Source of the DNA: Thuidium tamariscinum
Taxonomy: Eukaryota; Streptophyta; Bryopsida; Hypnales; Thuidiaceae
Reading direction: 5' to 3'
Length of the DNA: 64,000 bases
Assembly (NCBI GenBank): GCA_947034885.2
Contig: OX344749.2
Coordinates: 38,345,682 to 38,409,681 of the forward strand
The notes below the pieces were generated by a model. That model was not told where the DNA came from. It was given only the letters and a program-made list of their open reading frames with translations, and ran no database searches. Below are positions 1 through 34,566 of the stretch, one piece after another. Position 1 is the stretch's first letter; each line of letters begins with the position of its first letter. Position numbers and translations under genes: made by a program.

Positions 1-827
<827 letters not shown>

Positions 828-4474: not shown

Positions 4475-4615
<141 letters not shown>

Positions 4616-4722
4616 GATGAAATAATTTCAAATTTTTATTAAACTTTAATAAAAAATTTAGATTATTCTTATATTTTGTCTATTTATTAACTTTTAAATT
4701 TATACTTTTTAATAAAATTTTG

Positions 4723-4728
<6 letters not shown>

Positions 4729-4760
<32 letters not shown>
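4729..4760. repeat. (TA)n microsatellite in the psaI-ycf4 spacer copy
   Basis: A run of about 15 TA dinucleotides between the psaI and ycf4 copies. Confidence 0.9.
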
Positions 4761-4769
<9 letters not shown>

Positions 4770-4964
4770 ACAAATTTTAATTATAAAAAACCTATATAAA
4801 AAAATTTAATATAGTTTTTTATTTTATTTGAATCTAATAAAAAACTATATTAATTTTTTTTCTTAAACTACTAAATATTAATTTAATATATAAAAAAAAT
4901 TTAGTTTTTTTTTTTTTGCTAGTTATACTATATATATATTTCATGAAGTTTTGGAGACATCACT

Positions 4965-14500: not shown

Positions 14501-15083
14501 TGGATTGGACATTCTTGGGAGAATGCTAAATTTTTTTGTCAAGCACTAGAAGAAAATGAATTTTTTGCAATTGTTGTTTGACAACCGGTTTTCTAGTTGT
14601 ATGAGATGCTTGCAACTAGGTTACAATTTTGAAGCCCGAAATTGTAGGAGACAAATTGCAAAGATTGTAAAGGTCATTTTTCATTGGGTAGCCTATTTGA
14701 AAATTTGTTGATGAATTCTTTTGATGTGGTTGCTTATGTGGAACTTATTTTTGTGCAACTTATGTGGAAGTAATGTGCAACTATTTTGTAACTTCTAAAT
14801 TCATAGATTTTGAAATTTTAATCTCAAATTCTCAATGATTATAGATTCAAAATTTGAGATCTAATTTCTTTTTTTAGATCACTAAATTCAAAACTTCTTA
14901 AATTTTAAGTATTTAAATATTTCTATAGACTATAAAAATCTATAAATTGTAAAAATATTAGAATTTCATTATCAAAATTGACAATATAAAAATGCTATAA
15001 CTTACAATTCTTTTATGTCCACCTTAATGGTATTCTTGACAATTGATACATATATGACAATTAATAAAAGACTTGATACTAGT
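11534..15083. other. AT-rich intergenic region with small inverted repeats
   Basis: No credible gene: open frames are short and of biased composition. About 12195-12297 is an imperfect inverted repeat (TAAAATGGTGCCCT against AGGGCGCCATTTTA). A member of a dispersed element family lies at 12320-12583 (listed separately). The rest is AT-rich with no recognised content. Confidence 0.6.
12320..12583 (+). mobile_element. MITE-like dispersed repeat, copy 1
   Basis: Ends are inverted (ACCTTACACCTAAAATGGCC at the left; GCCATTTTGGGTGTACTTACCT at the right). The internal segment around 12395-12480 (GTGAAACATGTTCCAATGCA, then TTTGGATACCATATACAAAA) recurs at 44880-44950 in the same sense and at about 60410-60480 in the opposite sense. 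Its size, ~264 bp, is close to the 273 and 281 bp of the other two. Confidence 0.6.
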
Positions 15084-15245
15084 TGCATGCTAGTTGTTTT
15101 CTAGTTGTAGTTTAGTTGTGTCCTAATTGCATGCTAGTTGTATTCTAGTCAAAGTCTAGTTGTTTTTAGTTGAATTGTAGTTGCCTTCTAGTTGCACTAT
15201 AGTTGCACTGTAGTTGCACTCTAATTACTTTCTAATTAAACTCTA
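15084..15245. repeat. Degenerate CTAGTTG-type short repeats (MULE target site)
   Basis: About ten spaced copies of CTAGTTG or close variants (TAGTTGCACT, TAGTTGTATT) at 10-20-bp intervals. The MULE is inserted inside this tract: the same motif resumes right of it (TAGTTGC at about 32950). Confidence 0.75.
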
Positions 15246-15254
15246 GTTATTTTC

Positions 15255-15723
15255 GGCGTTCACTATTTCGCACCCCTCTTTAAGGGGCCTGCCGCGACCT
15301 GACGGTCCTTCTTCCTCGGGTTTGGCGTAGCGTCCGTGCTGGTTGGGCAAGGTCCGGCTGACAGGCGGGCACGTGCCTCCTTTTTGCTCCCCGGTTGGCA
15401 GGAGGGGCGGGGCTGCCCGGGTTCGTAGTGTTCTGAAGGCTGCCCCTGCCAGCAGACTTCTGAAGGTGGGGGTCGATACCCGCCACAACAGCCTCTGTGT
15501 TTCGCTAGTGCAGTCAATGTTTTATACTACCGTTACTGCAGCTTTAGGAACGTTAGGGCATGTTTAGGGTTCATTTTTGGACTGGGTTCAGATTGGAGGG
15601 TACCTTCAGTTTTCATTATCTCCCCTTCGTCTTAGAAGTGCACTGCTCTAAAATTACTAATGAGCTTTAACTTGTAACTAGCCCTCCAAGAAATGTAATT
15701 TGAAATTTTCATTGCAACTTGTA
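15255..15723 (+). repeat. MULE left terminal inverted repeat (469 bp)
   Basis: Begins GGCGTTCACTATTTCGCACC. The outer ~300 bp is G+C-rich and the inner ~150 bp AT-rich. Identity to the right repeat is 462/469 with no gaps, ending abruptly after ...GCAACTTGTA. Open frames seen inside occur on both strands of both copies and are not genes. Confidence 0.97.
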
Positions 15724-16068
15724 ACATCAACGTTAGAGTTCCAAGGGTACTCGAGAAATGGAGAACATTCTTGGATCAGAGGTGGAGACCACATTATTAA
15801 ACTTCACCGTCCCCCAGGAAACCAAGAGAAGTTTAGAATCCAAAAAATTAGGAAAACACGACCTCTAATACCAAGGTACAATACACTTTCTTCAATGTAC
15901 TAATAGTGTACATCTCATTGCAGTTGGGGGTTGGGGGTTCGGGGTTCGGGGTTTAGGGGGGTCGCGGTTTAATAAAGCACTGCATTTCAAGTTCTAAAAC
16001 TCATAGCTAATTCTAGAGAGGCACAAGAAAGACAAGACGTCTTACGTCAGATGCCAATTTCATTTGTG

Positions 16069-16260
16069 TATGTATGTTTTAAGTAGAGTCTTAGAGATAA
16101 CATTTTAAGTAAATACCTTTTCTGGAGACTTTAAGTAAGAAATAAGGGTCCTTTTAGAATTTTTTTTTATCAAAAAGACACTTACTTCTTACTTAAAGTC
16201 TCCAAAAAAGGTCTTTACTTAAAATGTTATCTCTAAGACTCTACTTAAAACATACATATA
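16069..16260. repeat. Fold-back (hairpin) element 1 inside the MULE
   Basis: A near-perfect inverted repeat: TATGTATGTTTTAAGTAGAG at the left returns as CTCTACTTAAAACATACATA at the right, arms about 85-90 bp with a short centre. It is related in arm sequence to the hairpin at 16496-16674 (shared GATAACATTT and GGAGACTTTAAGTAAGAAAT). Confidence 0.85.
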
Positions 16261-16495
16261 CCTTGTAGTGTATTCCAATGTTTTCATGAACCCTAGAATG
16301 ACAAAGATCTGTAGGTTCAAATTGAAAAAGTACTAATTCATTGTACACGTATACATGTACGGGAGTTGTTGCGGTCTAAAATGTAGTTATTGTAAATAAG
16401 GTACTATCCATTTTGAAGAGTTTGCCTTGTACATTTTAAATGACCTACATTTCATTTCAGGTCTACAACGTTTTGTAGTCACTACAACATAAGTG

Positions 16496-16674
16496 GTGTT
16501 CTAAGTTTAGTTCTACAGATAACATTTAAAGTTATGACCTTTATAGGAGACTTTAAGTAAGAAATAAGTGTCTTTTTGGTAAAATGTTACTAGGAAGACA
16601 CTTCATTCTTACTTAAAGTCTCCTATAGAGGTCATTCCTTTAAATGTTATCTGTAGGACTAAACTTAGAACACC
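16496..16674. repeat. Fold-back (hairpin) element 2 inside the MULE
   Basis: Arms of about 80 bp: GGTGTTCTAAGTTTAGTTCT at the left, returning as AGGACTAAACTTAGAACACC at the right. It shares GATAACATTT and the GAGACTTTAAGTAAGAA core with hairpin 1, so both belong to one small fold-back family. Confidence 0.85.
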
Positions 16675-17165
16675 CACCCCTTTCTCGTGTAGTTAATTTT
16701 TAATATTTATTGGGCATGATTTGTACACACCCTATAAGTGCATCATTTCCTTCACGGAGTATTAGGAGTATTAGGAGTATTAGGACTTCAATGTAATTTT
16801 TAAATCACATTCCATTTTAATAGCTTCAAATACTTCATTTCTTCTGTCCTCCAAATCAGACAAACTCATTAATTCACTTACCACATATTTTAAGGATTTG
16901 TATTATGGAAAATTTATGGGAAATTTATGGAAAAATTTGGAACTGCCAATTTCTGGGTTTTGCTAAGGGGTTGATTTGATGTTCAGCCTCACTGGCCTTC
17001 ATCATTTAAATACTCGAGTGCTTTCATGGAATGGACGTTACAGTGTTTAGTTCATTTACTTTTGTTATCATGACCAACATTGTTGACAAGACAGTCAAGA
17101 ACATCTCATACAATGACACTTCTGTGTTTTGGGCCACCTATGCAGATTGAAGAAAAACTTGACCG

Positions 17166-17348
17166 TCACCGAGGTTCGGATTCAGCTTCGGCAAACGGGT
17201 AGGTCCGGTAGGACAGGCGGGCAATGGGCCATTGTGCCAGAGTTCTGTTCCATTTCCCCGAGCCATTTTCGATGACTGCCTCGGGGTTCAGTGTTTTCAC
17301 TTCAAAGCTACGTGGATTCCTGCTGTTGCAGACAATGTACACCTGCAC
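17166..17348 (-). CDS. Short open frame in the MULE, unknown (60 aa)
   Basis: MQVYIVCNSRNPRSFEVKTL and on, with normal-looking amino-acid composition and no recognised domain. It is divergent from the Ulp1 gene. It could be an exon, a captured host fragment, or chance; nothing in the sequence decides. Confidence 0.2.
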   Translation of the reverse strand: MQVYIVCNSRNPRSFEVKTLNPEAVIENGSGKWNRTLAQWPIARLSYRTYPFAEAESEPR

Positions 17349-17402
17349 TTAGAAGAATTGGCGGTTTAGTTTTGACAATTCAAATGAGGACTACATCTTC
17401 TA

Positions 17403-17723
17403 TTGAATCGTAACGATGAATTTACCTCCACCTGTTCTAGGGTTCTGGGGTTTACCGGCAATGATGGCCTCGGCAGTTGGTTGTCAATTCCACAATGCCA
17501 TCGCGACACTTGCAGCCATCATGACAAGTGCGAGGATGGCTTCCAGGGTGATCGCGTCCATTGCCAGAAGGCAAAGGAAGCTCCGGAGTTTGCAAGGTCG
17601 GTGTCGCTGCTTCTGGACTTTCGACTTCATTCGGCTGGTGAGGGTTCTTGTCGCTCAGTCTTTCACTGTTTTAGTTTGCGTGCACATTGTCCATTGCGTG
17701 CACAACATCTTCGAGAGGAATGA
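17403..17723 (+). CDS. Open frame 5' of the Ulp1 gene, possibly an upstream exon or leader
   Basis: A Cys/His-rich segment (CHRDTCSHHDKCEDGFQGDR) lies in one frame and an overlapping frame is also open, so coding status is doubtful. A possible donor GTGAGG follows at about 17638. The segment 17724-18158 between it and the Ulp1 gene start shows nothing else. Treat as the likely 5' leader of the Ulp1 transcript. Confidence 0.2.
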   Translation: MNRNDEFTSTCSRVLGFTGNDGLGSWLSIPQCHRDTCSHHDKCEDGFQGDRVHCQKAKEAPEFARSVSLLLDFRLHSAGEGSCRSVFHCFSLRAHCPLRAQHLREE

Positions 17724-18158
17724 CATTGCTTTTAGCGGTTCATGTGGATAGTCTTTTCATTAGAAAGTGGAAGTGAGGATTATCAGGGTTTAGGCTGTGT
17801 TGTAGGGTTTAGGCGCACTTCCTTACTTGCTCTATGGCACATGAAAATGCCATATAATATAATTGGTAGTATACGTGTGGCTTCAGAAGTGAAGACATTG
17901 TTGTTTTTTGCCGTTCGTGCTCCGGATTTTAGAAGTGTGCAGCACACTCTTCCATTTTAGGCCCCCCCTCATTTGCTGGCATTCCAGATTTGCAGCGGTT
18001 TAGGGTTTCACCATGTGTTCTATGTGTAGGGAGTGCTTAGGCAACGCACCTTCTGTGTAAGATGACCCTGCAGTGGAGCGTTCGGTGGAGTTTTTTCGCT
18101 ACTGGAGGAAGAGGCAATTCTAAGAGCAAGAACCTTGACTTGTTTGTGAGGCACCAAC

Positions 18159-21100
18159 ATGGCGAAGACGAAGCACACTAAACACGTAGAAGATCCTGCA
18201 GCATTGGAGGAGCAGCAACACGGGGCTGTAGGGGCTTGTGAAGGGTCGAGCTCCGACGACTTCCAGGTATTTGGCCCTAAATTCCAGCGTCGTTTACTGT
18301 TTTCATTGAAGCTGTGGCAATTGGGATGGAGTTTGTGTCAAGGTTGGGTTTGCTTTCAATTCACCTGGGCTGCATTTAGCTGCAATACAATGCATGTGTC
18401 AAGGACGTGTGATTTTAAAGCTTCTTTTTTGCACGGACCTCTCTCTCATGAATTTCGGATGTATTTACTGTGCACAGGAAGATCCACCCCTCGTAACGCC
18501 CAAACCTGCTGTAGACCCGCCTAAAGGGGTCTTTTGGGCCTCCGTTAACATCGACCAGAGGACGTTCGACGTCAACTACGGCACTGAAGAGAACTTCCTG
18601 AGGTTGCTGAGAGAGTGTGCCTTGGAGGCTGCTACAAAGATTCCCCGACCCACAGCCAAAGGGAGGTTTTTCTTTCACTGTGTGCATTGCCTGTCAACAA
18701 AATTCACGAGCAAAATTAGACTTAACAAACACAGGTGGGATTCTGAGTGTCTGGCGGTGAAGGACGACATGGGCAATCCCAAGCGGCTGTTACCCTATCC
18801 AGACTAGGGCAACGGACAGGGGAAAACTTCAGAGATGATTCGGAAAGGGAAGGACGCGGAGGTAACAACGAAGGTGGTGCGCCGAGTTAAAGGCAAGAAC
18901 AAAAAAGGTGATGCTGCCATGCAAGACACTGCTGTGCAATCTAGTGTTCCAGTGGACGGGGACTCAGACAATCCAGCCGTCACAGAGATCCATCAGGAAG
19001 GGACAAGGGCTGGAGGAGACGTGGAGTTGCAGCAAGCAGAGAAGAGTGCGGCCACTGTTGAGGTGCTGGAGGTGGAGGTGGAAGAAAACACTAAAGCGAC
19101 AGAGGACATGGAATCCCCGCCCACCGTTGAAGATGACGCTACTGATGGAGAGGACATGCCTCATGCAACCAGTCCGAAGAAGCCTAGGGAGCAGAACATT
19201 GGTGATGGGATGGAAGGTGTTGCCGAGCAATCCAAGCAGAGGAAGGTTTACGACGCAGAGGTAGGGGACGTAGGAGACTGCATTGCTGATCGCACAAAGC
19301 GGAGGAGATCTGCTGAGCAAGGGGTTGTTGATAAGATTTTCTGGCAACCTCATCCTCCAGGACTCAAAGTTCCATTGGAGAAGGCGCCTCTCACAGAACA
19401 TTGCGTGGACTTAGATGAGGAAGACCCCCTCGTCAGTGATCAACGGGTGATTGGGAAGACGGCCGCCACTAAAGTGAAGCACAAGGCAGTGCACAAACAT
19501 AATCCACCACCGGAGTTGCGAAACACTGGTGACAAAGATAGTAGCAGTGAGGACTTCTCCTTCCGATATCTTGTCCAGACACGAACTACGAGTCCGCTCG
19601 GTGCGCAAACAGACCCAGTCCGACTCTCAGAAACAGTGACTGAAGAGGGCGCGCAAGAAACAACGCCACTCATGGAACCAACCGCCGTGACACTGCCTGC
19701 CCAGCAAGCAGAACTTAGTATTCCACGCCCAGAAACGACTCTACCGCCCGCGGATGACCCAGTATGGGATAAACTCGGGAAGTTCAAGACAATGTCTGCT
19801 AAGAAGGGCTTCTTGAAACGCAGTCCTGAGAGGGAGATTGCAGCTCGAGCTCTAGAGGAGTTGCATATGGAGAAATGTTTGAAATCTGCGCAGACGCCGT
19901 CACCACGTAAGCGGAGACTTAAGCACATAGTGCTCTCGTCTGACAGTGAAGAGCACCAACAGGAAGAGATGGTTCTCCATGATAGTTTAGAACCCGTACA
20001 CTGCGCACAGCCCGAGTCTCCGGACCCGGTTCATGCAAGGCAAACTCTAGGGCCATTTACACAGGACAACTTAGAGGAACTCGACAAAGAGGCGGAAACC
20101 TACGCTGATGACCTTGAAGCACAACTAGAAGACAATCATGGGGACGAAGACCTCATGGAAGAGCATCAGAACACTGCGGTAACCTGTCCACAGTCCCCAC
20201 CAAAACTGCAATGCAGTGCAGATCGCGTGCCTTGTACTTCATCGCCGAAGTCAATGCCAGTTAGTAGCACGCGCATGGATGTTGTGCCTTGGACCGTGAA
20301 CTTGCAAGGCAATTCCACTATGCAGAGGTATTGGATGTGCGGTGTAGGGTCGCCAGAGCCTACTGTGCATCCGGACATAGCACAAAAAAATCCGGGACGG
20401 GTCCAGCGGTTGGACAAAGATGAACGAGATGTTCGGATGAAAGCCGATGTAGAAGCGGAGGCAATGGCTGCTTCGTCTACGAAGCCTAAACCCCCACAGC
20501 CTTGCCAGACACCTGATCTATTGCATTTGGTGACGGCCCGCCCGCAGGTGCTGGATTGGGATTACCGCGGACAGACCGCGGAAGAATTCAAGAAGTCGTT
20601 CTCTTGCTCCTGGGAGAAGGGAATTTTCCAAGAGTCAACTCGAGCGTGCTCCATGTGGTGGTTCTGTGACGCAAAGGTACGCTCTTTCAACCCTTGTTGC
20701 ACTTCCCTTGGTAATTAGCAGGTGTGAATTCGTAGATTGCCTCGCCTGTCCACAATGTTAAGCTTGCAACATGTCCAGCTTCATTGCCATGGAAATTGAG
20801 TTTGAACTCTGAATTAACTATTGCTATGTCTTGGTAGGACGAGGATTATCCCGATGTAAGCACTGCAATTGGGCGTGCTGTAACTTCCATTTGTAGAAGC
20901 GTGAAGTATAAAGAAACGCCTCAAGACATTGAGTTGTTTGCGAAATACCTCCAATATCTCAGGGATCTCCAGAGTTATGAGGACAGCCTTGCGGAGCTAC
21001 GTCTTCGTCAAGAGCGGTTCGTGGAAAAGGCAGTGCAGGAGTTCAGGCGTGACACTAAGTTCCGACGAGAAAGCTATAGGTGGGATTGGTGCCCCTTGTG

Positions 21101-23431
21101 GTGGGTGGTCTCGCAGGTCAATGTTTTTCGGAAACTACCACCATTGCCCTGGTGTCACGACGGTAAGAGTTCATTTTCAGCCGTGCGTTTAGGACAATGC
21201 CCTAGCGTATTGTGTCATATTGTGTTAGTGTTTTGGCACCTGCAGTGCGGATGTCCCTTTCACTGATGTCATGTTTCCTATGCAGATGAGGAGGCAGACG
21301 AGGTGCGCCGCATATTGCTCGCGAAAAGAGTGCCGCGTATGAATGCGCCTCATTTCGTACAAGTCCTTCGAATTGCCATGACCAACATCTTCGGGAGGTT
21401 TAGGCAGTTCACGTGCCCAATCTTTGGGGTGAACAGGGCCGCATTGCGTGCTATGTGCCGTAGTGACAGTGAAGTCCTTCGGGCAGTGGGCATCTACACT
21501 AGCGAGGCACCTTTCCGGTTTGCTGGCATCCAGAATTGGGAATCCCATGCAGTGTACGCCTCAGTCATGCGCGATTCGCAGGTGGTCTGCGAGGGGAAGG
21601 AGGACCACGTCCTGGACGGAGTTATGGAGTGGGTCGAAAGCGTTTGTGCGCGTGCTTTGCAGGACTTGGCACTGCACCACCCCGCAGTGTTCCGGACTTG
21701 TTGGAGGATGACTACATGCGAGCAGTGGGGAGAGCAGTCAAAAATGTGGGACGCATGTCTTCGAATACGGGAGGACTTCGACATCGGTTGGGTGGCTGAA
21801 GAACATCAGCCTCAATGGGCTATCCGAGTGAAGAGTATTCAACAACAAATACTCGACCTAGTCCATTCATTAGCTGCTGCTAGTGAAGCGGATGACGAAG
21901 CGGCTTGGGTGAGCCGTCTGAGTAATAGTGCACCATCTACTGAAACAGTGCAGTGTCCTGCTCTACCAACGACAGTCACGCACCAAGAGAGTATGGGCGA
22001 AGGAAGTGCGTCCGCGGACAGTCCAATCCCTCTTCAACAGAGGATGCCTGCCGCGGCAATTGAGTTGCCGGTGCATGTTGATGACATCTCGACGCAAGAT
22101 TTAGAAATAGATGGTCTTTCTGTGCCAGTGACCCCGCCGACTCTAGTCGGTCTCATTTGCACACAGTCCGGGGGAGGGCAAAGCAGCGTGGACGTCGTCA
22201 AGGCATCTCCTCGAAGTCTGGAACAAGTGTTCCAGGCCATTTCTTTAACACAGTACGAGGCCCTATTGGATGACAAGTGCAGTGACGAAGAGACCGAGAA
22301 GGTTGCCAATGTTCTGCAGGACAAAGTGACAGCCGATGATCCGGAGCTCGTGACTAGAGTACGCCATGCGAAGGCTGTCACATTTGTCCCACTACACGTC
22401 AAGGAGCAGGATTCCAAGCGATGGAAAAAGCTGTCCATCTCCAAGGCATATGACTTCTTCACCATTGACGAACTCATTGAGGCATTACCAAGGTTAGTTG
22501 CCTTTTATGTGTATCTGCTTTCTCCTCTTTCCGTTCTTCGTATTTAGCAACAATAGCAACGACACGGTGTAACACTGAAAGTGCCCTTCGCTCGTTGTTT
22601 TGCAGGAGAGGTTCGGGCGATGCCGACATGGGAACAGTCAACTTCTTTGGGGACGCTAATTGGGATGCCCTTCCTGTGCCAATGAAGCAGATCTTTGATT
22701 TGCAGAAGACGAAGCGATTCCTTGGGCAGAACATTGTGGAGTTGCTTAGTCGACGACTTTGGTGGAGTCTTTCAGTGCAAGCTCGTCAGAAACTGTACGT
22801 GGCGCCATCGTTTGTGCAGGCGCCACTACAGCACGCATGGGCTGCTGAGTCGGATGAGGCCCTCCTGAAATGGGGTCGGGAGTACCTTGTGCCCTCTCGA
22901 TTCTATAAGAGCTGCCCACCAGACATGGAAGTGTTGGTTCCCTACGTAGGCGCGCATCACTGGTCTTTGATCATTTTGACGAGTACTCGGGTAAGTCACT
23001 TGGATAGTGGAGGCATGCACGAGTTTCCGGAGGATTTGCAGTATCTGAAGCGGCTTCAGAAAGTGTGGGAGTTGCTGCATGATTCACGCCTTACCCTACC
23101 ACCTGCAGAGGAGAAAGTGAAGTGCTTCTCGCAATTAGGGAGCTACGAGTGCGGGTACTGTGTTCTACGATTCATGGAATCATATCTTCGGATTTTCCAT
23201 GGAGATGACCCTGTCTTGGAGACGGCGAGGGCGTCCGCAATGTTTCATGAGCAGGTGAACTCCCCTGAGCGTGGACGTGAGTTGCAGAAGAACGTGATCG
23301 CGGCGGTTGCAGACGAGCTCGGAGCTGCCACGGAGACAGAGTTATATGAGCGTCCGTATAGGGTGATGTATGCGCCGCACAGGGAGTGTAGTCCGGAGTT
23401 CCTCAGGGAACGGAAGAAAGGTGACAATTGA
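18159..23431 (+). CDS. MULE-encoded large protein: C2HC zinc finger plus Ulp1/SENP cysteine protease; one in-frame amber
   Basis: Exons inferred: 18159-18266, 18478-20676, 20838-21162, 21286-22492, 22606-23431; phases agree and the sum is 1,555 codons. One TAG (18805-18807, codon 146) interrupts the frame, which stays open on both sides, so this is probably CAG-to-TAG; a second start at 18835 would give a protein lacking the finger. Residues about 104-127 form C-x2-C-x13-H-x5-C (CVHCLSTKF...HRWDSEC). Residues ~150-730 are charged and low-complexity, probably disordered. The last exon is a Ulp1 (C48) protease: His1398 (GAHHWSLIIL), Asp1413 (SHLDSGG), Gln1456 (FSQLGSYECG) and Cys1462, the full catalytic set. 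C48 proteases cut SUMO-like proteins; the role in transposition is unknown. The N-terminus MAKTKHTK resembles the histone H3 tail. Confidence 0.85.
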
Positions 23432-24465
23432 ATGTAGACAGATAGACAGTGCCCGTGACATGCAAACGAGGGGCATCATGGTCGTGGCTTGTCAATAGTT
23501 TTGTGCATAGTTGTCAGAACTGTTGGTTTTGCGGTTTAAGGGTTTCATTACGGTTTGGAATTTCTGCCTCACCTTAAACTGCGTACTTCACTGTGAGGAT
23601 TAGAACACTACGGTTACTCTGTGGACTATCTGCATTATGTGCCCCAGACCTGTGGAATGTATATTGTCTCAATTGAAAAGACAAAAGTAACAAGGGACAT
23701 GTGCTTGTACTTTGTGTTATTAAAAAGGGAGTTCTTGTGCGAGTTCTTCTAGGGAGTTCAGCCACCATTGCTTGTAGTGTGTTACATTGAAGAAGGCCTT
23801 CTGGCATTCTCTTTAGGCTTGTGTAACCAGTGAGTGTGCTATCCGGCACGAGAGGACTAAACATCTCCTTTGTCTTCCGTAATGTAATAGTGACGCCTGG
23901 GTGCACTTAGTGTAGCACGCCTGCGACGATGAGTCACTTTCTGTGCCAACGAGTAACCAACAGGCAAGGAAGTGCAGAACACTATGCACTGCATGGAAAT
24001 CGAAGTATCAGGGAAGGGAACTCCTAACAACGTGCATTTGAAAAAATTCGCACAATACCTCCATCTTTCTTGACTACCAAGCAAACGCGAGGATTAATCA
24101 GCACTTGGAGACACTTCCATGCACCGAAGACAGCGAAGACTTCCACGATGTGCAACGACGTCAGTGAGGAAGCGGTTTACAGTGTTTCGTGAGCACCGAC
24201 GTAGAACACTGGACTGTGCACGGGACTTCCCATCTACAAATCGTGAATTCCGTAATCCCACTTCCCATCCACGACCTAAGCATAACAAAATTGATGATCA
24301 ATTCATTCGAGCTTAAATCAAAGGCGAAGAGATCATCTCGCATACATTGAAACTGTCGAGAATGAAGCACTCTCTTCCTGAAGCTCTAAATGTCCTTCGC
24401 CTTGTACGTCATACAGAACACTGTAGCCTATCTAATGCTCTGCATTTGAGAGGCTAACTTCCTGC
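23432..24465. other. MULE non-coding region between convergent genes
   Basis: No recognisable gene; open frames are short and inconsistent. It should contain the 3' UTRs of the Ulp1 gene (+) and the OSB-motif gene (-). Confidence 0.5.
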
Positions 24466-25043
24466 CTACATAGCAAATTGCGCCTTCACCCACTCCGGGG
24501 TATGCCAACTATCTATCCATAAGGCCCTCTTGGATACCTTGTGCTTGAAGTCTGGTGACTTAGAATTTCTCTTGTTGGCACGATTGTCCCACCAAGCATT
24601 AGGGTTGTTGAAGTAATCCGCCCAGTCTTGCGCAATTCTCTCGCCAGCTTCCTCGACCCGCTCGCTGAATCTATCATTGTTGCTGCGGTCTTCACTACGA
24701 CTTCTTTGCGCGTCACATGCCTCTCTTACGAAGCCGACTTGACCCAATTGCAGACACCAGCAGACAAGAGATAAGAGCATGTCCGCAATGCAGCCACTGA
24801 TCCTCTGCACCGTAAGTGCTAGGAGCCAAAGTGTTAACAGCATTAAGCCAACCTGCAAGTCTCCAGCAAGTCAATTCGTTAGCTACGGACATGAAACCTC
24901 GAGAAGAGAATCCTAACCTAATGCAAGCAGGAATGAAGGTATACACTCACCACTGATAAGGCGTCGGTCTGCTGTCGGAGGATGAGGAAGGTCTCATGAA
25001 GGATGAGCACTGTCTCCTCCGAGACGAAGAATCGGCGCACCAT
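24466..25043 (-). CDS. MULE-borne gene with OSB-type PDF motif (captured organellar ssDNA-binding protein fragment?)
   Basis: Proposed exons 25043-24951 (31 codons, MVRRFFVSEETVLILHETFL..., ending at a GTGAGT donor) and 24852-24466 (128 codons plus stop), phase 0. The C-terminal ~50 residues (108-159) read WADYFNNPNAWWDNRANKRN, then SPDFKHK and ALWIDSWHTPEWVKAQFA. This is the signature of the PDF motif of plant OSB proteins, which bind single-stranded DNA in mitochondria and plastids. The OB fold that normally precedes the motif is not seen. Residues 32-70 are hydrophobic and Cys-rich, and an overlapping frame there is also open, so the splicing of the middle may be wrong. No stop interrupts the motif. 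It may be a host fragment acquired by the MULE or a DNA-binding module proper to this element family. Confidence 0.6.
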
Positions 25044-26256
25044 TGTGCCCGAATATGCGGCCACACCAGAAGCCAAAAATAGTGAGGGAAGGGGGCTATA
25101 GTGGGAAGACGTTCACTATTTCATAGTCTGTTGCGGTAGGGGTCTTCAAGATATACGACGGAGTGACGTCACTGAGTATTCCAACTCGTGCTAGCACTAA
25201 TTTCACCAGTCGTGACTGTGTAGTTTCTGTCCTTGGAATTCCCCACGTCTCCAATGTTCATGAAGCTAACAATGTAGGACCACAACACCTTCCTTACTGA
25301 GAATGTTGCAGGGACCTTCATGCCCCATGCTAGTGCTTTAAAACAGTTGAGCGCCTAAATCCAGGGCATTCAGTATGAACCAAGTTCAACGACGGGTTCT
25401 TTCTATGAACCGTCGTTACTGACTATCCCAGTAGGTGCTAGTGTGCCACTATCAAGAATGGCGATTTGACATATCTTCACTTGCAAAGTTATAGACGCGG
25501 CACTGAAACAGAATCGTACAATTGCAGTCAGTTTCCAAATTTTCGGTAGACGCTCTCAGTGGACTTTGCTGTAGTGAACGAGCACCAACATAAATCGAAG
25601 TAACTTGCACGTCTGCACCTTAATGAAGAACTGCTTCTTAATACTACATGAAGAACTCATTATCAGAAAGCGAACAGAACACTGAAATGAAGAACGAGAT
25701 ATTTCAATGTCAGTAGAGTTGTAGACCGAAGTCTGCATGATTAGCCCATGAACCTCATCATTCAGGAAGCCTGCAGTCTGTTTATATGTTCCGCAAGCCT
25801 AATGAGAGCAATATGTTGTGTTGAATCCCTCCAAGAGTCCAAATACGCAGCTGTACATGTAACCACAAAACACTGTGCCTTCAAGTGCACCTTGTCGCAC
25901 CGAAGCTAAAACCTTCGTACTCGCATGAAGTTCACTCATTCCATGAAGAACTTGTGATCCTTGTGTCTGGAGACGCCTCAGTCATGCATTTTTGGCAACG
26001 AAATTCATAGTACTCCAAAACACAAAAGAAAACCCACTGAAGAACTTAGAAACGAACGACAGATGCACACTTTGTTATGTGAAAATATAAATATCATAGC
26101 CCCTTCATATATGAAGGTACATATCACATTCTGCATACAGAACTCTGTCCGTGAAGTAGTAACTCCGAAAAGTGGAAGCCGCATGCAATGCGAACTATCC
26201 ATACCGTGGTATGTGTACCGCAAAGAAAACCGTACTCTCCATCACAGGAAGATGTA
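25044..26256. other. MULE non-coding region downstream of the transposase
   Basis: No gene is recognised. Presumed 3' UTR of the transposase gene and promoter of the OSB-motif gene; several short frames on both strands lack features. Confidence 0.5.
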
Positions 26257-28792
26257 TTATGCTGGGGAATCCATCCCCAAACGTAACCTTCTTGACGTAG
26301 GAGGTCTTCCACTCCTCTCAAGCCAATCTTTCATGTGTCCTAAGCGCATACCCATTCCATCTTCCACACGATGAAACACAGGATTTGCACTTTCTGGGTG
26401 GAGAACGCCAGACTCCAAGTCGTTGGCCAACTTCTTCATCTTTCCTTGAAGACGGTAGAAATCAGAGTGCAGGTGTGCCATGAGGGTTTGGTTACCAAAT
26501 ACAAAATCTAGAAGATCTTGAGCTTGGATTCTCAAAGTAGACGGCAAGTCAACTTCATTGTGGGATACTTCTTCCTCTGTCACGGTTCCAGAGGGAGAAG
26601 CCATGGCAACGGAATGTGGAGTTTGAACTGATGCTTGAGATGGAGGTCTTTGAGGGGTGAATATTTGGCCTACAGACGTTGCCATCGTGCCCTTCAGAGC
26701 TCCACAGTGTCTCGCCACAGTCCCCTCTGCAAGGCTGGGATGTAGTAACCTAAGAACTTTCACCTTGTGTTTGCAGGTGTTACCTCTTAACGCATGCATG
26801 CAGTTGCAGCTGGCCCACAACTCAGCAGGGTTATGCACAACATACCGGAGATGCTTGTGCGTGACCGATGTCACATATGCCAGACCGCCTTCATACAACA
26901 GCAGTGTCACATCAGTGTCTGGAATGTCCCGTGCCAAGATAAGAGCAGAGACTACCATTCCTCACTCTTTGCGGTTGTCCACGAACCCAAACTGCTTGCG
27001 CACACGTTGGTACCAATAGTGGGTAAGTATATCTTCTGTAAGGACGTGGATACACCAGTCAACTCTACGGCCAGTCATTCGACTCCTCTCCGCCTTCAGC
27101 ATGGACTTCATGTAACCATGGTAACTCTCTACTGCAGCATTTGTGTCTTGGCCCGCATATGGCAAGTTCCTGTACCCAACAACCCACATATGTACCTTTG
27201 GTATCCACTGCTCTGTCACGTAATCCCAGAACTCATTAGCAGCAGGGTATGTAGCACGTAGATGTTGTAGTTTCTGAAGAGCCCAAGCAGTGGCTGCATC
27301 CCCCCCGGGTCCCGCTCAGTCGTACATGATCGAAGATAGTCCCTTCAAGATATGAGCCCGCATATCGCTGTCTTGTATCTTGATACAAGCTTGCTTCTGC
27401 CACGCTCTGTGTACGTGCCACAGACATAGGAAAATAGCGGTTGATGGCCACACAGCACTAGCACAGAATGAAGCAGTAATCAGTGTTTCATAGCAAGGTA
27501 GCATGCGCGTTGCACTCAAAGTGTACCTAAGGTCAACATGGAGCGATGATGAGGTTTTCTGTTGATGACAGTGCTTTAAATTGAACTATTGAAAGCCAGG
27601 TTTAACTGAATTATGAGCACGTAACACTGAGGGGTAAGTGGCGTAGGGGTTCCAGCGTAAAAGAAAGACTAACCGCAGACTGTTGATCTCCCCTTGTGCG
27701 CAGTCAACAATGAAGGCATTAGGTTTCCAATCAGCCTTCACACGCTTGAGGGCATTGTCTAACTCCTTCATCCAAGGAGTGAGGTCCTCTTAACAAGATG
27801 TGGAAGTCAAAATGAAGGCCACGGGGATTCCATTGTGCCATTCATCGAATACCATGGCGGTGTACAAAGGAAACTGTCAAGCGGTAGTCCACAACAAAGT
27901 CAGCACCTTTACTCGAGGGTAACGTTAACAGTTGTCAGTGAAAATGTAACGATTACAATAATGGATATATTTAGGCTGTAATAGGGTCATGCAGACATAC
28001 CTTATTTTCGTTGGTGCCGAAAGTGGCGTCAAGAGAAAGTGAGAAACTCCACCTTCATGCCCGAACTGAATCATTACTTCACGTTGCCACGGGGTTTGGA
28101 TTCCTATAGTGAATGGCATAGTAGAAGCTGTGAGCTGTCCCCTTCTAACTGCTGCGGTTTCTTTATAGAAGAAAAAACTGTCACGATTGGCTTGAATCCA
28201 AAGTTGCACGCTTTTGGCGTCACCAGCGTCAAGCATGTATGTCTCTCTCGCAACTTTTGTAGCTAGATTGCGCACATCACGTTCATGAAGGAACATGTCC
28301 CTAGAAATGTCCCTCCCTGTCGTAAGAGCTTCTTGTACGACATGCATGTGCTTGGACATGATCTGTGGAACACTGTGACCATCACGGAGTAGTTTCAGGA
28401 CAAAGTCCTTAATGTCTTTCGATAAATGCCACGAGAAAGCACCACGATCTCCACTATCTTGTAACCCATGACATTGGACGCCAACAGCGTTTACATGGCG
28501 TCCTTCATAGATTGAAATCTCTGTGATGTCCGGCAAAAGGTACAAGGTTTTAACACTGAAAGATGCAAGACATCCACGCTTCAACGACCCCCCCCCATTG
28601 CTTCATGGAATCTCTTTTTTGTTTCGGCAGACCATCTTTAGCGGCAGCTTTTCCCTTCTTTTTTTTCGGCTGAGCATCTCCTTCGGCAGCTTTCCCTCCA
28701 TCTTCCATGGACAATGGAGCATCACTATCATGTTGAGCGGCACTAGTTTGAAGGCGAGGAGCAGTTTCGTCAGTTGTGGCAGACTCGGACAT
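26257..28792 (-). pseudogene. MULE transposase (DDE, SWIM zinc finger), broken
   Basis: Exons 28792-28001, 27873-27674 and 27457-26257, joined at GT/AG borders with matching phase. A lysine-rich N-terminus is followed by KRGCLASFSVKTLYLLP and helical domains, then LDATFGTNENK (first catalytic Asp), FPLYTAMVFDEWHNGIPVAF, NAFIVDCAQGEIN (second Asp), FLCLWHVHRAWQK, DTNAAVESYHGYMKS (Glu, candidate third acid) and the SWIM finger CNCMHALRGNTCKH (C-x-C-x8-C-x-H). The C-terminus beyond is unrecognised. Lesions: a frameshift at the G9 run 28588-28596, a second shift back near 28030-28050 just before LDATFGTN, TAA at 27790-27792, TGA at 27316-27318 and TGA at 26962-26964. Each stop could derive from CAA or CGA by C-to-T. 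As read, no active transposase is made. Confidence 0.88.
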
Positions 28793-28926
28793 TGCAGCGT
28801 TCGTTCCTACAGTATAAATTTCATTTCATTATCTCATCTCTTTAGATCACACTTCAAGGAAATAAGTACATTCGCAAACATGTAATGAGGGCATTATAAG
28901 AAGCAATATAAACCTAAACTCCGTCG

Positions 28927-29900
28927 TCAATAAATTCGTGAACCTGCATGTTGATGCATACCAGTGCAAGGAACTGCACCTGAAGTTGTGTCACCAACGC
29001 TGGGTGTAACAGTGAAGCCAGCGCCTGATGTAGTAGAAGTTAAAGTGGAAGCGCTGTAGTCGTTGTCCTCAGTGAGTGTCACATTCAGATCAAACTGAAG
29101 AATGGTTTCTTCGAGTGTACTGGGAGTTTTTTTAGGAGTATGACGCCGCTTGCACTGTATTGTCCTTCGTTTCCAGCCTGGCATGCTGGAGGTACAGGGC
29201 ACCTTCCCAGTCGTCGTTTTAACAGATGTAGGAGGGCTTCGCGGGCACTGTGCGGACACGAAGTGTGCCGCTAGCAAGTTCAAGTCTGTACTTTCTAGTG
29301 GAACTGACTGAGACAGTGTTATGGATATGACATTGGCGATGGCTTGTGCGACTTCTGCCGGCTCAGGTGCATTGATCGCATGAATGCCATTTTCATTCCT
29401 TTCTGATGGCACTTCTGTGTTTGGCAGAAGTGCAGCCATAGCTTGGCGGTCTCCTACAGCCAATTTAAGGAGTACAGCTTCCAGGTGTGTTGTGTCTACA
29501 TTTGCACCTTCATTGTTCCGATCACCTGAGACAATGGTCTGCTCTGCAGCAGTAGTAAGAACAGCACATGTAGATTTTTTACCTTTGCGCGTTTTCGTCG
29601 GTTTAATTGCTGCATCTTGAGCAGCATCTTGCGGAATGATCTTCTTCTTCGGCCTTCCCCTTTTGGGTTTCACTGCTCCAACTTCAGCGACCTCTTCAGG
29701 TATTTTTTTTTTGGCCTTCCCCGTTTGGCTTTCACTACCGTATCCGGAGGGACATCTCCAGGGCTGATCTTCTTTTTCGGCCTTCCCCTTCTCTTTTGTG
29801 GTACAGGAGGTTGCGCTTCCCCTTCCCCTTGCGGTACCCCTTGCACTTCTTCTTCCACTTCAATGCCGAAAGCCTTTTTTTTCCTAAACCGCTTAGCCAT
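28927..29900 (-). pseudogene. MULE AT-hook protein with three AT-hooks, frameshifted at an A10 run
   Basis: Starts MAKRFRKKKAFGIEVEEEVQ. Three AT-hook cores, KRRGRPKKK, KRGRPKKK and KRGRPKKK, are each followed by an acidic/Pro spacer. After the second hook the frame runs out at 29670, and the third hook continues in the neighbouring frame at 29673. The break falls in a run of ten A on the coding strand (29703-29712); a length change of one base joins the frames, and spacer similarity shows that this is the original reading. The remainder (about 245 aa) is Thr/Ser-rich with basic patches (KRRTIQCKRRHTPKK) and no known fold. AT-hooks bind the minor groove of AT-rich DNA, so a role in recognising the element or its target is plausible. 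It lies directly upstream of the transposase on the same strand. Confidence 0.75.
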
Positions 29901-30028
29901 AGGACCTCCAACTACAACTACCTTCGCTTTCTACTTACACAACAACCGCGAAGTCACATTCTTGATGTTCCCAGTATGATCTTGTGGACCATATTGGCAA
30001 TTGTAACTGCACCATCACCACAGAACAA

Positions 30029-30490
30029 TTAGGAACAGAGTTTTGTTGGCAAAGGCAAATGAGCAATGAAGATACAGATCCACACCATCCCTGCAGAGAG
30101 CGAATTGCCATACCGGACAACTTCCTTGGGAGTGCTATCAGAAGCACAGAAATCCAGTGCTCCTTTCGCTGGCTTAGTTCGTATCTTGATATACTTGCAA
30201 GGGACACCGTCAACGCTAGTCTCCATCCCAGTAATGAAATCTGCAACCCTGTTGGTTGGGATGAAACATTGCTGAACGACGAGTTTATCACTCTTGTAAG
30301 TGCCCTGTACTCTTCGGACACGGTGTGTTTGACGTAGCTCCCACAACAAATCTTCTTTGCAGATTGACCCAATGGGAGGACATTGAACCTTGTCTATAAC
30401 ATACTGCAGATTAGAGTGCATTTGGCCCTTGTTGAATTCCTCGGGCCCTAAACCAGATCCAATGTCCATCTTCAATTCCGTGGCCATCAA
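30029..30490 (-). CDS. MULE open frame, unknown, perhaps 5' exon of the AT-hook gene
   Basis: MMATELKMDIGSGLGPEEFN and on, 153 aa, with balanced composition (VRRVQGTYKSDKLVVQQCFI, PTNRVADFITGME). Coding character fades after about residue 128, next to possible donors (GTATGG at about 30113). No domain is recognised. It ends about 130 bp upstream of the AT-hook frame on the same strand, so the two may be exons of one gene, but no splice pair is convincing. Confidence 0.45.
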   Translation of the reverse strand: MMATELKMDIGSGLGPEEFNKGQMHSNLQYVIDKVQCPPIGSICKEDLLWELRQTHRVRRVQGTYKSDKLVVQQCFIPTNRVADFITGMETSVDGVPCKYIKIRTKPAKGALDFCASDSTPKEVVRYGNSLSAGMVWICIFIAHLPLPTKLCS

Positions 30491-32471
30491 GAGAAGGGCG
30501 TGTAGAAGGAACTTTATTTTCGAAATTAAAACGCCTAAAACCCTGTCGCCAGTACACTAAACACTGCATGAGCAATACTGCTGAATGTACTTGAAATGAA
30601 GAGTGCACACCGGAGTTAGCACCTGATCCTTGAAGTACTGTAATAAAAATTGCGTGAGTAGCTGATTGGGAAGCTCAGCAAGAATGAAAACTTCGACGAA
30701 TCCCTCAAACAGGCAATCCATCATTTTCAGATGCACGCGAATGCACAATTGACGTTACAGTAAGAGCAATTCAGTGGTAACAGACGGTAATCAGAAATGA
30801 AAGTGAATTCTGAAGCCCAGCAGAAGGAATTGTAGGTGAAGCACATACCACCGTAATCGTGTGCTGAACGCTTCTCATTCGTGCCGAACATTATGCATAA
30901 AGACCCTATCCCCTGAAACACAGGTTCTAATTTAATCCCTATACCTCAAACACTTTTTTCATCCCTTGGTACACAAGCCGCAAGCGGAATACAAGGAATA
31001 CACCCAAAACCTTCCTATACTAGAATACTAAGTGGAAATGAAATTTGAAACATAGAAAATGTAACTGCAGGTGAACCCTTCAACACAGTAGTGATGACTG
31101 CAAGTCAATCCTCAATTACAAGTATGCTGTAATGGAAGGTGAACCCTAAAATGCAGTACCTTTCAGAAGCACATGAAGTTAAGAGCCCAATGTACTGAAT
31201 TACGGAAGAATCCGAGTCTACAATGACAAAGTTCAGTGAAATGTCAAAAACGGGGACGTCGATACTCCTGAACACTGAGGCGACTGAACACTGAAGCAAC
31301 TACAGAAGCTCGTTGTAACGAAAGAACAGTGCAGATACATTTCATGATAACTGCAAATAAAGTTAGCGACAATGTGACCAATCACAGACGAAACGACAAA
31401 GAATGCTTTTGACACAGGAGGCACCTGTTCAAGGCAGCGATTTGAACTGCCAGTGTGCATTACTCGTGGACGTAACATTGGGGAGTAGTGTATGCCCCGC
31501 AAGTAATCGAGAACTACAGAGGAGCAAAACGACACTGAAGCAGGCGCCGCCTAAACCCTAAAAACAGTACATCCGGAATTAGTCGCAAGCACCAATCCAC
31601 CCACCCCTAGTGTCCCTTATAGAGAAGACGCTGAAAAACTGTATGAAAACACTGAACCCGGTTGGAGAAACGAAGACTTCGAATGATAGGGTGAAGCACA
31701 GAAATCATGCATGTAAGACGGATGAAGACATTCATGGAAGGTGGACATGGGACTGCAAGGCGAAACATTGGACGTGTCCCAAATCGAATTTTTGTGCTAG
31801 AGGTTGTCCGAACGTTTCCCCTTCATTTTCTTCATTCAAGTTCTGTGTCTTGCAGTTGTAGATGTCATTCATGAGAAGAGGGAGAAAGCATGATTCCTTC
31901 CCCATTTTTTTTTCCACGGTGTGTACGCAATTGGAATCCAGTAGTCATGAATTGAATGCGTGATGAGGGAGTGGGTGTCGCAATGTTCCTCCTCATTTTT
32001 TTCGCAAGCCCCTTAGTCATGAATGTCATTCATGACATGGGATTCCATGCATCCACTTTGTGTCCATAATTTACCATGCTCCAAGGTAACTAGGAGCATA
32101 GTAGTCATGAATGTCTTGTATATATAATGTGGGTGTGGGTTGGGTTGGTGTGGGGGGCAGTACAACAATTTCTACCATTTCTTCTAACGTTTTGGCCATT
32201 CTTTCATTGTCGAGTAATTTATGTGAATTCTAAGACGTAGGAGTTCTGTAATATAATGTATGCGACGTTGTTGTTGGAGGTAATGTTCTACATTCTTCGA
32301 ATGTGCACCTAAACCTCTAAATGAGATGTTCAAAGTATTTATGATTTTAGAAAATGAATTCCTAGAAGGATTAGTTGAAGCTTCTAAGTACATTTGTATT
32401 GCAGATCAGTGGAACTCCAAGAACAAGGGGAAATACTGAGAACAATGGGGCTCTACCAAAGGATTTAGAAA
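30491..32471. promoter_or_regulatory. MULE right subterminal region: probable promoter side of the minus-strand genes, with TCATGAAT repeats
   Basis: No gene. AGTCATGAAT occurs at about 31944, 32013 and 32102. The middle copy forms an almost perfect 21-bp palindrome (GTCATGAATGTCATTCATGAC), and CATTCATGA recurs at about 31868. A TATA-like stretch, TATATATAAT, lies at about 32119. Such spaced palindromes near a transposon end could be protein-binding sites; that is inference. Confidence 0.4.
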
Positions 32472-32940
32472 TACAAGTTGCAATGAAAATTTCAAATTAC
32501 ATTTCTTGAAGGGCTAGTTACAAGTTAAAGCTCATTAGTAATTTTAGAGCAGTGCACTTCTAAGACGAAGGGGAGATAATGAAAACTGAAGGTACCCTCC
32601 AGTCTGAACCCAGTCCAAAAATGAACCCTAAACATGCCCTAACGTTCCTAAAGCTGCAGTAACGGTAGTATAAAACACTGACTGCACTAGCGAAACACAG
32701 AGGCTGCTGTGGCGGGTATCGACCCCCACCTTCAGAAGTCTGCTGGCAGGGGCAGCCTTCAAAACACTACGAACCCGGGCAGCCCCGCCCCTCCTGCCAG
32801 CCGGGGAGCAAAAAGGAGGCACGTGCCCGCCTGTCAGCCGGACCTTGCCCAACCAGCACGGACGCTACGCCAAACCCGAGGAAGAAGGACCGTCAGGTCG
32901 CGGCAGGCCCCTTAAAGAGGGGTGCGAAATAGTGAATGCC
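32472..32940 (-). repeat. MULE right terminal inverted repeat (469 bp)
   Basis: Reverse complement of 15255-15723 with seven transition mismatches and no gaps; outermost bases GGCATTCACTATTTCGCACC. The 9-bp duplication GTTATTTTC follows at 32941-32949. Confidence 0.97.
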
Positions 32941-33057
32941 GTTATTTTCTAGTTGCTTTGTTGTTGAATTGCTATCACATTAAGAATACATGCAATTGTA
33001 CGTAGTTTGACATATTAGACTTTAAATAATGTAAAGCTGTCAACATCACCAATTGTA

Positions 33058-33302: not shown

Positions 33303-34382
33303 TTTGTCTTATTACATTCCCATATTTCTAAATTTCATTTCGCAACTACTTTGCAACTATTTTGCAACTACAACAATTTACATGCATGTCAATGTTGGTA
33401 CAAATGTAGAGAGTTATAGTTGTAAGGTAGTTGCATAGGACATGTAGTTGCATTTTAGTTTGTTGTGGCTGACATGTTTTTCTTTTAATGAGGGGAGTAT
33501 AAGCATCTCTTGGATGTCCCATAAAAAATCATAACAATAATTTTTGTCTTGCTTTCATGTAGGACATTTATAAAAAGTTTCAAACTAAATTTTTTTTATC
33601 ATTATTGAAATTTAGAAGCTAAAAATAGAAAGTATAGACATTCTTTCGGCAAAAAAATATTGTATACAACCAATAATACGACACTAGTAGGTCTTACATC
33701 AAATTGGCTAGAAGACAAGTCTTTAGTAGTCAGAGGATTCTTTTGTAAATTTTTTTAAAAACAACCTACCACTACAGAACTTAATGTTCTCGCAAACATC
33801 ATTTTTGACGTAAAAACATGTGTTGCTATATTGCATATCACCTAAAATCTATCACCTAAAACATGAGTTTCTAATAGTGGAATAATGAACATACTCATTA
33901 CACACGTGCATAAAATATCCCTAACTTTGGAAAGTTGATTTGGCATCTGCAATGCCACAACAATCTCCTACATAACATTAAAAGAAAAATAAATATGAAT
34001 CAAATAAGAAATGAAAAAAATAATTGAAAAAATAATAATTAAGAAAAATTACCTTCACAAGCATATGGACATTAGCTTCATAGATGTACAAGCCATTGCT
34101 ACTAGTGATCCATGGATCATTGGAACTACAGATCCATGGATCATTGGGACTAGCGATCCATGGATCATTGGGACTAACAATTCAGGCCTGTCTTTAGAGC
34201 TAACTATTTCTACAATTCTCTAGAGCATATTATAAACTCCCACTTGCAGAAAATAAGAATCTTTGTATTTGCAATGTAAGTCTTCATCTATACCATGCTT
34301 TTGGTTTGAATCTTAATGAGCTAGCACATGAGGATTCAATATTTAGTTGTCTACCCTATTCAATATTGAGAGCACACATTGT
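33303..34382. other. AT-rich intergenic DNA with a half-copy of the 34383 hairpin
   Basis: No gene. Around 33795-33870, CATCATTTTTGACGTAAAAA and CACCTAAAACATGAGTTTCT match the right arm of the hairpin at 34383-34566. Short TTGCAACTA repeats occur near 33345-33470. Confidence 0.5.
34107..34178 (+). repeat. 24-bp tandem repeat, three units
   Basis: Units GATCCATGGATCATTGGNAC plus four bases at 34107, 34131 and 34155. Because 24 is divisible by three, the overlapping open frame repeats DPWIIGTS; no other evidence of coding exists. Confidence 0.9.
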
Positions 34383-34566
34383 AAGAAATTCATGTTTTAG
34401 GTGATGTATTTTAGGTGACATTCAATGTAGCAACACTTGTCTTTACGTCAAAAATGATGTCCGCCATAACATCTTGATGGCGGACATCATTTTTGATGTA
34501 AAAACATGTTTTGCTACATTGAATGTCACCTAAAATACATCACCTAAAACATGAGTTTCTTATAGT
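34383..34566. repeat. Long palindrome (fold-back), about 180 bp
   Basis: The left arm TCATGTTTTAGGTGATGTAT returns as ATACATCACCTAAAACATGA. The centre CATCATTTTTGA/TCAAAAATGATG surrounds CCGCCATAACATCTTGATGGCGG. Arms are about 80 bp with few mismatches; the outer end TTTCTTATAGT resembles the CACTATAAGAAA ends of CACTA-type elements. Confidence 0.8.

Follow-up and report, generated by a model that had tools for sequence, protein, structure and literature searches.

A Ulp1-bearing Mutator-like element with an additional PDF-motif gene in the moss Thuidium tamariscinum

A stretch of 64,000 nucleotides of Thuidium tamariscinum DNA (GenBank assembly GCA_947034885.2, contig OX344749.2, positions 38,345,682 to 38,409,681 of the forward strand), hereafter the window, was found to contain a Mutator-like element (MULE) of 17,686 bp at 15255-32940. 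The element appears to carry three genes: a MULE transposase gene, a gene for a Ulp1-type protease lying tail-to-tail with it, and, between the two, a small gene with a PDF motif. Comparison of copies revealed that all three have been kept by purifying selection while the subfamilies of the element diverged, which argues that they have a role in the element rather than being carried along by chance. Our reading, to which we assign a probability of about 0.72, is that the element belongs to a MULE lineage that gained accessory genes stepwise, with a role proposed below for each. Ulp1-carrying MULEs are known in flowering plants; here the history of the protease gene can be followed within one genome, which makes it possible to test in what order the parts were gained and how selection acts on each.

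The element is bounded by a perfect target-site duplication and long terminal inverted repeats (TIRs), as follows.

15246-15254, no strand: left target-site duplication, 9 bp (GTTATTTTC), from repeat comparison
15255-15723, plus strand: left TIR, 469 bp, from its identity to the right TIR
32472-32940, minus strand: right TIR, 469 bp, from comparison with the left TIR
32941-32949, no strand: right target-site duplication, 9 bp, from repeat comparison

The TIRs align without gaps and are identical at 462/469 positions (98.5%). Hallmarks of MULEs are a target-site duplication of about 9 bp and long TIRs, though non-TIR MULEs exist; the element has a 9-bp duplication, long TIRs and a MULE-type DDE transposase. 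The 363-Mb assembly (19 contigs) was searched with the left duplication plus TIR, giving 32 matches. The copies analysed were nine full ones (the window copy and eight others with both ends) and parts of two more; further TIR pairs among the 32 matches lie outside this set. Perfect 9-bp duplications, and Ulp1, PDF and AT-hook/transposase sequences, were present in 9/9 full copies. Over long aligned blocks, identity to the window copy is about 98% for C2 and C6, 96.5% for C10 (with an interrupted TIR), 88-90% for C3a and C11a, and 70-78% for C3b, C4 and C3c. The likeness of the last three to the window copy is confined to three blocks, at about 18.1-23.5, 24.3-25.05 and 26.2-32.1 kb, outside which only the TIR tips and some short pieces match. 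Their PDF gene stands as an aligned island amid spacers that do not align under the BLAST setting used. One of the partial copies, C11b (L027, G000:C11:8823300-8833299), is decayed: it has a related TIR (78%) at one end, and its transposase, at 82% identity, contains stops.

Two fused MULEs had been considered on account of 13 TIR-like bases at 25110-25122; the idea was dropped because their match has a BLAST E of 0.36 and they lie about 65 bp upstream of the start codon of the PDF gene. The 17-mer at 25108-25124 has three mismatches to the TIR tip and may reflect chance or a binding site. Two fold-back palindromes (16066-16261 and 16495-16674, 77.5% alike) lie within the element close to its left TIR and may be hairpins of the miniature inverted-repeat transposable element type or specific to this element. 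A CTAGTTG-type minisatellite (15079-15254) adjoins the left end.

Judged from its sequence, the long, intron-bearing gene tail-to-tail with the transposase gene ends in a domain that has the His-Asp-Gln-Cys set conserved in Ulp1/CE-clan proteases.

18159-23431, plus strand: Ulp1-type gene, five exons (18159-18266, 18478-20676, 20838-21162, 21286-22492 and 22606-23431), an exon model with boundaries compared in nine copies
18478-18804, plus strand: start of exon 2 with a C2HC-like zinc-finger motif (FHCVHC...H...C)
22607-23428, plus strand: Ulp1/CE-clan cysteine protease domain with His 22958-22960, Asp 23003-23005, Gln 23132-23134 and Cys 23150-23152, from sequence alignment and model matches

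The gene has GT-AG introns and 1,555 codons, with a single in-frame TAG in the window copy at 18805-18807, a position that reads through in the distant element L040 and in copy C3b. In L040, the second Cys of the presumed zinc finger is replaced by Tyr. Ulp1/CE-clan (C48) proteases have a catalytic set of His, Asp, Gln and Cys in this order, and His118, Asp133, Gln176 and Cys182 of the catalytic exon are invariant in the 8/8 open sequences aligned (out of 15). A profile search against PDB sequences did not reach significance; it placed four CE-clan chains first, at E 0.036-0.16, and a Ulp1-like chain sixth, at 0.44. Comparison of the low-confidence structure model with the PDB returned CE-clan proteases at all of ranks 1-42 (probability 0.96-1.00, best E 1.0e-3), among them Ulp1, SENP, XopD and NopD. 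We regard the domain as very probably Ulp1-type. Pfam detected neither DUF1985 nor DUF287, the domains of VANC proteins, in the five Ulp1 open reading frames (ORFs) scanned. Exon boundaries are conserved among copies, with a few copy-specific losses of splice sites.

The PDF gene was modelled from exon comparison.

24466-25043, minus strand: PDF-motif gene, two exons (25043-24951 and 24852-24466), 159 amino acids, open, from exon comparison and substitution ratios
24475-24624, minus strand: PDF motif (W..YFNNP..WWDNR..K....PDFKHK...ALWIDSW.TPEWV), from alignment; the best-modelled part

The gene is open in the window copy, C2, C3a, C11a and C3b, and broken in C10 (two stops), C6 (frame), C4 (stop and frame) and C3c (frame, near the end). 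The protein starts with a strongly hydrophobic helix (mean 2.37 over 19 residues), and its PDF motif is both the most conserved and the most confidently modelled part. The motif was assigned by its Pro-Asp-Phe signature and length and by OSB sequences, no curated profile having been found. Neither an OB fold or SSB domain before the motif nor any Pfam match was found in the 159-residue protein, and its structure model gave no meaningful match in the PDB.

The third gene is predicted from its sequence to encode a MULE transposase comprising an N-terminal region, an AT-hook array, a DDE core and a SWIM motif.

26257-30487, minus strand: transposase gene, five exons (30487-30114, 30006-28980, 28806-28001, 27873-27674 and 27457-26257), from exon models across copies
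28980-29930, minus strand: AT-hook block in the transposase gene, three RGRPKKK motifs in two frames, from sequence
27127-28030, minus strand: proposed DDE triad, Asp 28028-28030, Asp 27703-27705 and Glu 27127-27129, assigned by motif
26767-26808, minus strand: SWIM motif CxC...CxH, from sequence

Pfam identified the MULE domain PF10551 in the C3c transposase (E 2.2e-14, above the curated cut-off); on the window's own ORFs nothing exceeded the cut-off, the nearest being DUF5575_C. The start codon is uncertain, the Met at 30487 being missing from C3a, C3b, C4 and C3c. As modelled, the window gene has in-frame stops at 29931-29933, 27790-27792, 27316-27318 and 26962-26964 and frame breaks near 29700, 28590 and 28030, one of which is an 8-bp insertion found in 0/9 other copies compared there.

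In the window copy, the AT-hook block is cut off on both sides by stops and frame changes, and its substitution ratios, given below, are unlike those of the rest of the transposase, as might be expected of a separate fourth gene. We consider such a gene extremely improbable. In C3b, C4 and C3c, which have two to four AT-hook-like GRPKK motifs, a single frame runs from the N-terminal exon across the AT-hooks to a common splice donor, with one in-frame stop each in C4 and C3c. The AT-hook exon measures 1085, 935 and 1082 nt in C3b, C4 and C3c, respectively, differences that are multiples of three. The N-terminal region, AT-hooks, core and SWIM motif of C3c form one five-exon gene of about 1,221 codons with a single stop, one splice acceptor reading AA. 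On this reading of the frames, the AT-hook sequence makes up the N-terminal portion of the transposase, which leaves the element with three genes, not four.

These models bear on the initial annotation of this DNA, which had described an intact-ended Ulp1-bearing MULE with a four-part gene set. The perfect 9-bp duplication (GTTATTTTC on both sides) and the 469-bp TIRs that it reported are confirmed, and the sequences inside the TIRs and the nine full copies agree with a Ulp1-bearing MULE. The ends are indeed intact; what had been missed is that the transposase and Ulp1 genes of the window copy are disabled, the PDF gene being open. The proposed four-part set reduces to three genes with the AT-hook block absorbed into the transposase, and the supposed OSB-motif protein is replaced by a two-exon PDF gene encoding a hydrophobic helix and one PDF motif, in which an OB fold was not found.

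Selection was assessed by pairwise ratios of nonsynonymous to synonymous substitution rates (dN/dS), using NG86 counts and 500 bootstraps. The comparison between subfamilies comprised the six pairs among the window copy, C3b, C4 and C3c. For the transposase, dN/dS was 0.07-0.11 in the core, 0.19-0.33 in the SWIM and C-terminal part, and 0.18-0.29 in the N-terminal part. The Ulp1 gene gave 0.14-0.17 in the catalytic exon, 0.13-0.20 in exons 3-4, 0.32-0.39 in the middle, and 0.11-0.24 in the zinc-finger part (with exon 1), and the PDF gene gave 0.28-0.38, with a highest upper bound of 0.58. Wrong-frame controls, for 3/6 pairs, were at least 0.99 for the transposase core, the Ulp1 catalytic exon and the PDF gene, and at least 0.92 elsewhere, the exceptions being the AT-hook block (0.80-0.90) and the linker that follows it (0.34-1.26). 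In their correct frames, the AT-hook block gave 0.61-0.82, with 2/6 intervals including 1, and the linker 0.45-0.70; at best, the block can be regarded as a linker that bears repeated motifs and is under loose constraint. An independently selected AT-hook module is not supported. Two checks had been proposed earlier, that TIR-defined copies share all modules and that these evolve with dN/dS below 1. All modules recur in the nine full copies, the partial C11b being the exception, and the Ulp1, PDF and transposase genes lie well below 1 between subfamilies, the AT-hook block again standing apart.

With both its transposase and Ulp1 genes broken, the window copy is disabled, and any movement of it would require help in trans. 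Across the aligned pieces of the ten other copies, 89 stops were counted, with shared stops counted once per copy and junction stops excluded. Of these, 74/89 coincide with CAG, CAA, CGA or TGG in one or more other copies. A single transition turns any of these codons into a stop, and the pattern fits decay of methylated cytosines.

Genome-wide, one transposase exon matched 68 places, the Ulp1 catalytic exon 54 and the PDF stretch at least 150. Co-occurrence was counted on 54/68 transposase and 47/54 Ulp1 matches, weak and fragmentary ones having been dropped, with a distance of 12 kb. Transposases with at least 90% identity had a Ulp1 match nearby in 14/14 cases, all tail-to-tail; those at 72-82% identity in 26/28 cases, 23 of them tail-to-tail; and those at 36-49% identity in 0/12. 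A PDF match lay near 14/14 transposases of the window clade, using 50 of the at least 150 PDF matches, and, among 150 PDF matches listed, near 0/28 intermediate and 0/12 distant transposases, a search that diverged Ulp1 or PDF sequences could escape. L040, an intermediate element, has Ulp1 and transposase genes tail-to-tail and no convincing PDF match in 9.5 kb. The PDF gene occupies its place between the Ulp1 and transposase genes in the window clade and lies near no other relative found. The gene set looks as if it was built up in layers: a transposase, then Ulp1 added, then PDF.

Nine other PDF places, picked by hand, were examined. In 5/9 (L042, L043, L044, L046 and L047), the PDF frame lies at the end of a copia-like pol, in antisense orientation. 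In 3/9, namely L029 (3826-7172), L041 (493-3399) and L048 (507-3437), PDF exons precede a PPR gene at a distance of a few hundred bases. The remaining place, L045 (G000:C9:5758430-5758636), has the same two-exon PDF gene with neither copia nor PPR in 3.5 kb, and is possibly the host source gene. Pfam found copia reverse transcriptase in both loci scanned, L047 (RVT_2, E 5.5e-75) and L043, and PPR/DYW in L029, the one scanned; the other copia and PPR calls rest on reading or on likeness to these loci. A complete copia element (L047/L049/L050, G000:C3 about 16733065-16738431) has 217-bp long terminal repeats (LTRs) that are 99.1% identical, an AAAAC duplication and one open frame of 1445 codons, with the antisense PDF gene between pol and the 3' LTR. 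The PDF genes of L044, L047 and L045 have a short ATG exon, and their intron agrees in place and phase with that of the MULE gene; those of L042 and L043 read as one exon. Plausible splice sites between PDF exons and PPR genes suggest PDF-PPR fusion genes, and many of the at least 150 PDF matches may belong to this type.

The MULE PDF protein and those of the loci compared above are 34-37% identical over exon 2. Between copia families, synonymous sites are saturated and the proportion of nonsynonymous differences (pN) is 0.36-0.45, which is consistent with constraint. In a tree of 63 columns, MULE PDFs cluster with PPR-linked ones (0.95), apart from copia; an alignment of this length is too short to tell two captures from transfer between elements. 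We tentatively propose, at somewhat less than even odds, that the two-exon PDF gene is a shared helper taken up by both MULE and copia elements and kept by selection in both, acting as a factor that handles single-stranded DNA, possibly anchored by its helix, and forming with Ulp1 and the transposase a three-gene kit for transposition and anti-silencing. The retention of a single gene family by both a DNA transposon and a retrotransposon would point to a common need, would give antisense retrotransposon ORFs a recognisable relative, and would hint at how an organelle-type DNA-binding motif can enter mobile elements.

In the mechanism that we propose for the stepwise-built element, the transposase would bind the 469-bp TIRs, move the element and leave the 9-bp duplications. 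The Ulp1 protein may be a nuclear deconjugase of SUMO or a ubiquitin-like protein, countering host silencing or protecting the transposase; this role is proposed on the analogy of the VANC/KIU proteins of Arabidopsis, which also bear Ulp1. The PDF protein may bind single-stranded DNA of transposition intermediates; such a role would suit a DNA transposon and a retrotransposon alike and would explain a PDF-family gene in copia elements.

Several observations weigh against this reading. In 9/9 full copies, the Ulp1 model and the transposase model each contain one or more stops or frame breaks. The AT-hook block is under weak or no constraint in all ten pairs compared, close to its wrong-frame values. 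When the window copy is compared with C2 and C10, most dN/dS intervals include 1, and the PDF gene against C10 gives 2.53; ratios near 1 between recent copies are expected after insertion and give no support for present function. The Ulp1 domain had no Pfam match at E up to 10, and its structure model has a mean pLDDT of 53.5, with no PDB match counted at E 0.001 or below. Among the intermediate transposases, 2/28 have no Ulp1 nearby and three have it in another arrangement, and 6/47 Ulp1 matches have no transposase nearby. C11b, whose transposase is one of these two, shows no Ulp1 or PDF match within 12 kb of it, its other end not having been found; being intermediate by transposase identity and kin by TIR, it counts against a set common to every copy.

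Alternatively, the element could be a Pack-MULE patchwork, in which Ulp1 and PDF are captured host fragments without a role. MULEs often capture gene fragments (PMC13317346, PMC2528002; papers are cited here from excerpts), PDF motifs are common in this genome (the at least 150 matches above, the three C-terminal-only ones examined adjoining PPR genes), and C11b lacks a sign of either gene. We consider the patchwork very improbable and already largely refuted by dN/dS, which is far below 1 between subfamilies in the correct frames and about 1 or above in the wrong ones; the genes are moreover common to 9/9 full copies and lie near 14/14 clade transposases, and their exons and introns are conserved. 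Direct descent of the Ulp1 gene from the KIU/VANC gene of Arabidopsis-type non-TIR MULEs, with the present element as a TIR-bearing relative, would account for the similar layout, a protease domain reverse to the transposase gene (PMC2528002), and anti-silencing by KIU-bearing elements is on record (PMC13317346). This descent seems improbable to us: the present element has long, well-kept TIRs, in contrast to KI-MULEs, which belong to the non-TIR type (PMC13317346, PMC2528002), the Ulp1 capture in non-TIR MULEs has been dated to the monocot-eudicot split (PMC13317346), and DUF1985 and DUF287 were not detected by Pfam in the five ORFs. VANC21-type motif arrays were not found in the element either, the core AGTATTA not being enriched (four in the 17.7-kb element versus six in the rest of the window, and none in C4 and C3c).

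A third explanation concerns the PDF gene, which may ride along for structural or regulatory reasons, antisense transcription or a membrane-like helix mattering rather than DNA binding. The strongly hydrophobic N-terminal helix would suit this, as would the antisense position of the copia PDF genes relative to pol, since antisense transcription may itself regulate (PMC7264820). We judge it rather unlikely, given that purifying selection acts on the PDF protein and is frame-specific, and that the PDF motif is its most conserved and best-modelled part; the PDF motif of AtOSB1 is reportedly sufficient for binding single-stranded DNA (PMC6963530). Stepwise gain of genes that serve the element remains our preferred reading.

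Elsewhere in the window, positions 1-5520 hold an insert of plastid DNA with rbcL and an accD-like frame, and atpB, psaI and ycf4 by reading. The tRNA between rbcL and accD was called as Trp with anticodon CCA, and rbcL shows T at positions expected to be C, among them one in a TGA before MTPQ, a feature typical of plastids that use U-to-C editing. The insert points to a probably seed-free host. A palindrome of about 180 bp (34382-34562, 92% self-complementary) lies outside the element, and an open frame at 52106-52552 matches inositol monophosphatase (Pfam E 1.1e-20). In the non-coding parts of the window, GGTTTAGG is enriched, with six observed against 0.15 expected.

The systems closest to the element are described in work on Ulp1-bearing MULEs in plants (PMC13317346, PMC2528002), on anti-silencing by VANC (PMC5735166, PMC10398659) and its domains DUF1985 and DUF287 (PMC5735166), on OSB proteins and their PDF motif of about 50 residues (PMC6963530, PMC4166229), and on antisense additional ORFs of plant LTR retrotransposons (PMC7264820). 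No title or abstract start among the open-licence papers that the literature searches listed describes a Ulp1 MULE in a seed-free plant, which is weak evidence of novelty; that of the PDF gene is judged against excerpts of the OSB and antisense-ORF papers, no literature search having been aimed at the PDF motif together with transposons.

The KAONASHI/KIU-bearing non-TIR MULEs (VANDAL, Arabidopsis) likewise combine a MULE with a Ulp1 domain reverse to the transposase (PMC13317346, PMC2528002). The present element differs in keeping long TIRs, in the AT-hook array of its transposase and in its extra PDF gene, and its Ulp1 domain is too distant for Pfam, with neither DUF1985 nor DUF287 found. 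In the Ulp1 MULEs of melon, rice and grapevine, Ulp1 occurs in either orientation, in melon also in TIR-MULEs; the excerpts mention no PDF gene or fused AT-hook array (PMC2528002). OSB proteins have the PDF motif in common with the MULE gene (PMC6963530, PMC4166229), whose product has a hydrophobic N-terminal helix instead of an OB fold, none being found, and is transposon-borne. The aORF-3R of plant LTR retrotransposons is an antisense gene between pol and the 3' LTR, as in the copia elements here, and the excerpts describe no clear likeness of the antisense ORFs to other proteins, except for an SMC domain in one (PMC7264820). In contrast, the copia gene reported here has a recognisable PDF motif and an intron, and it has a relative in a DNA transposon.

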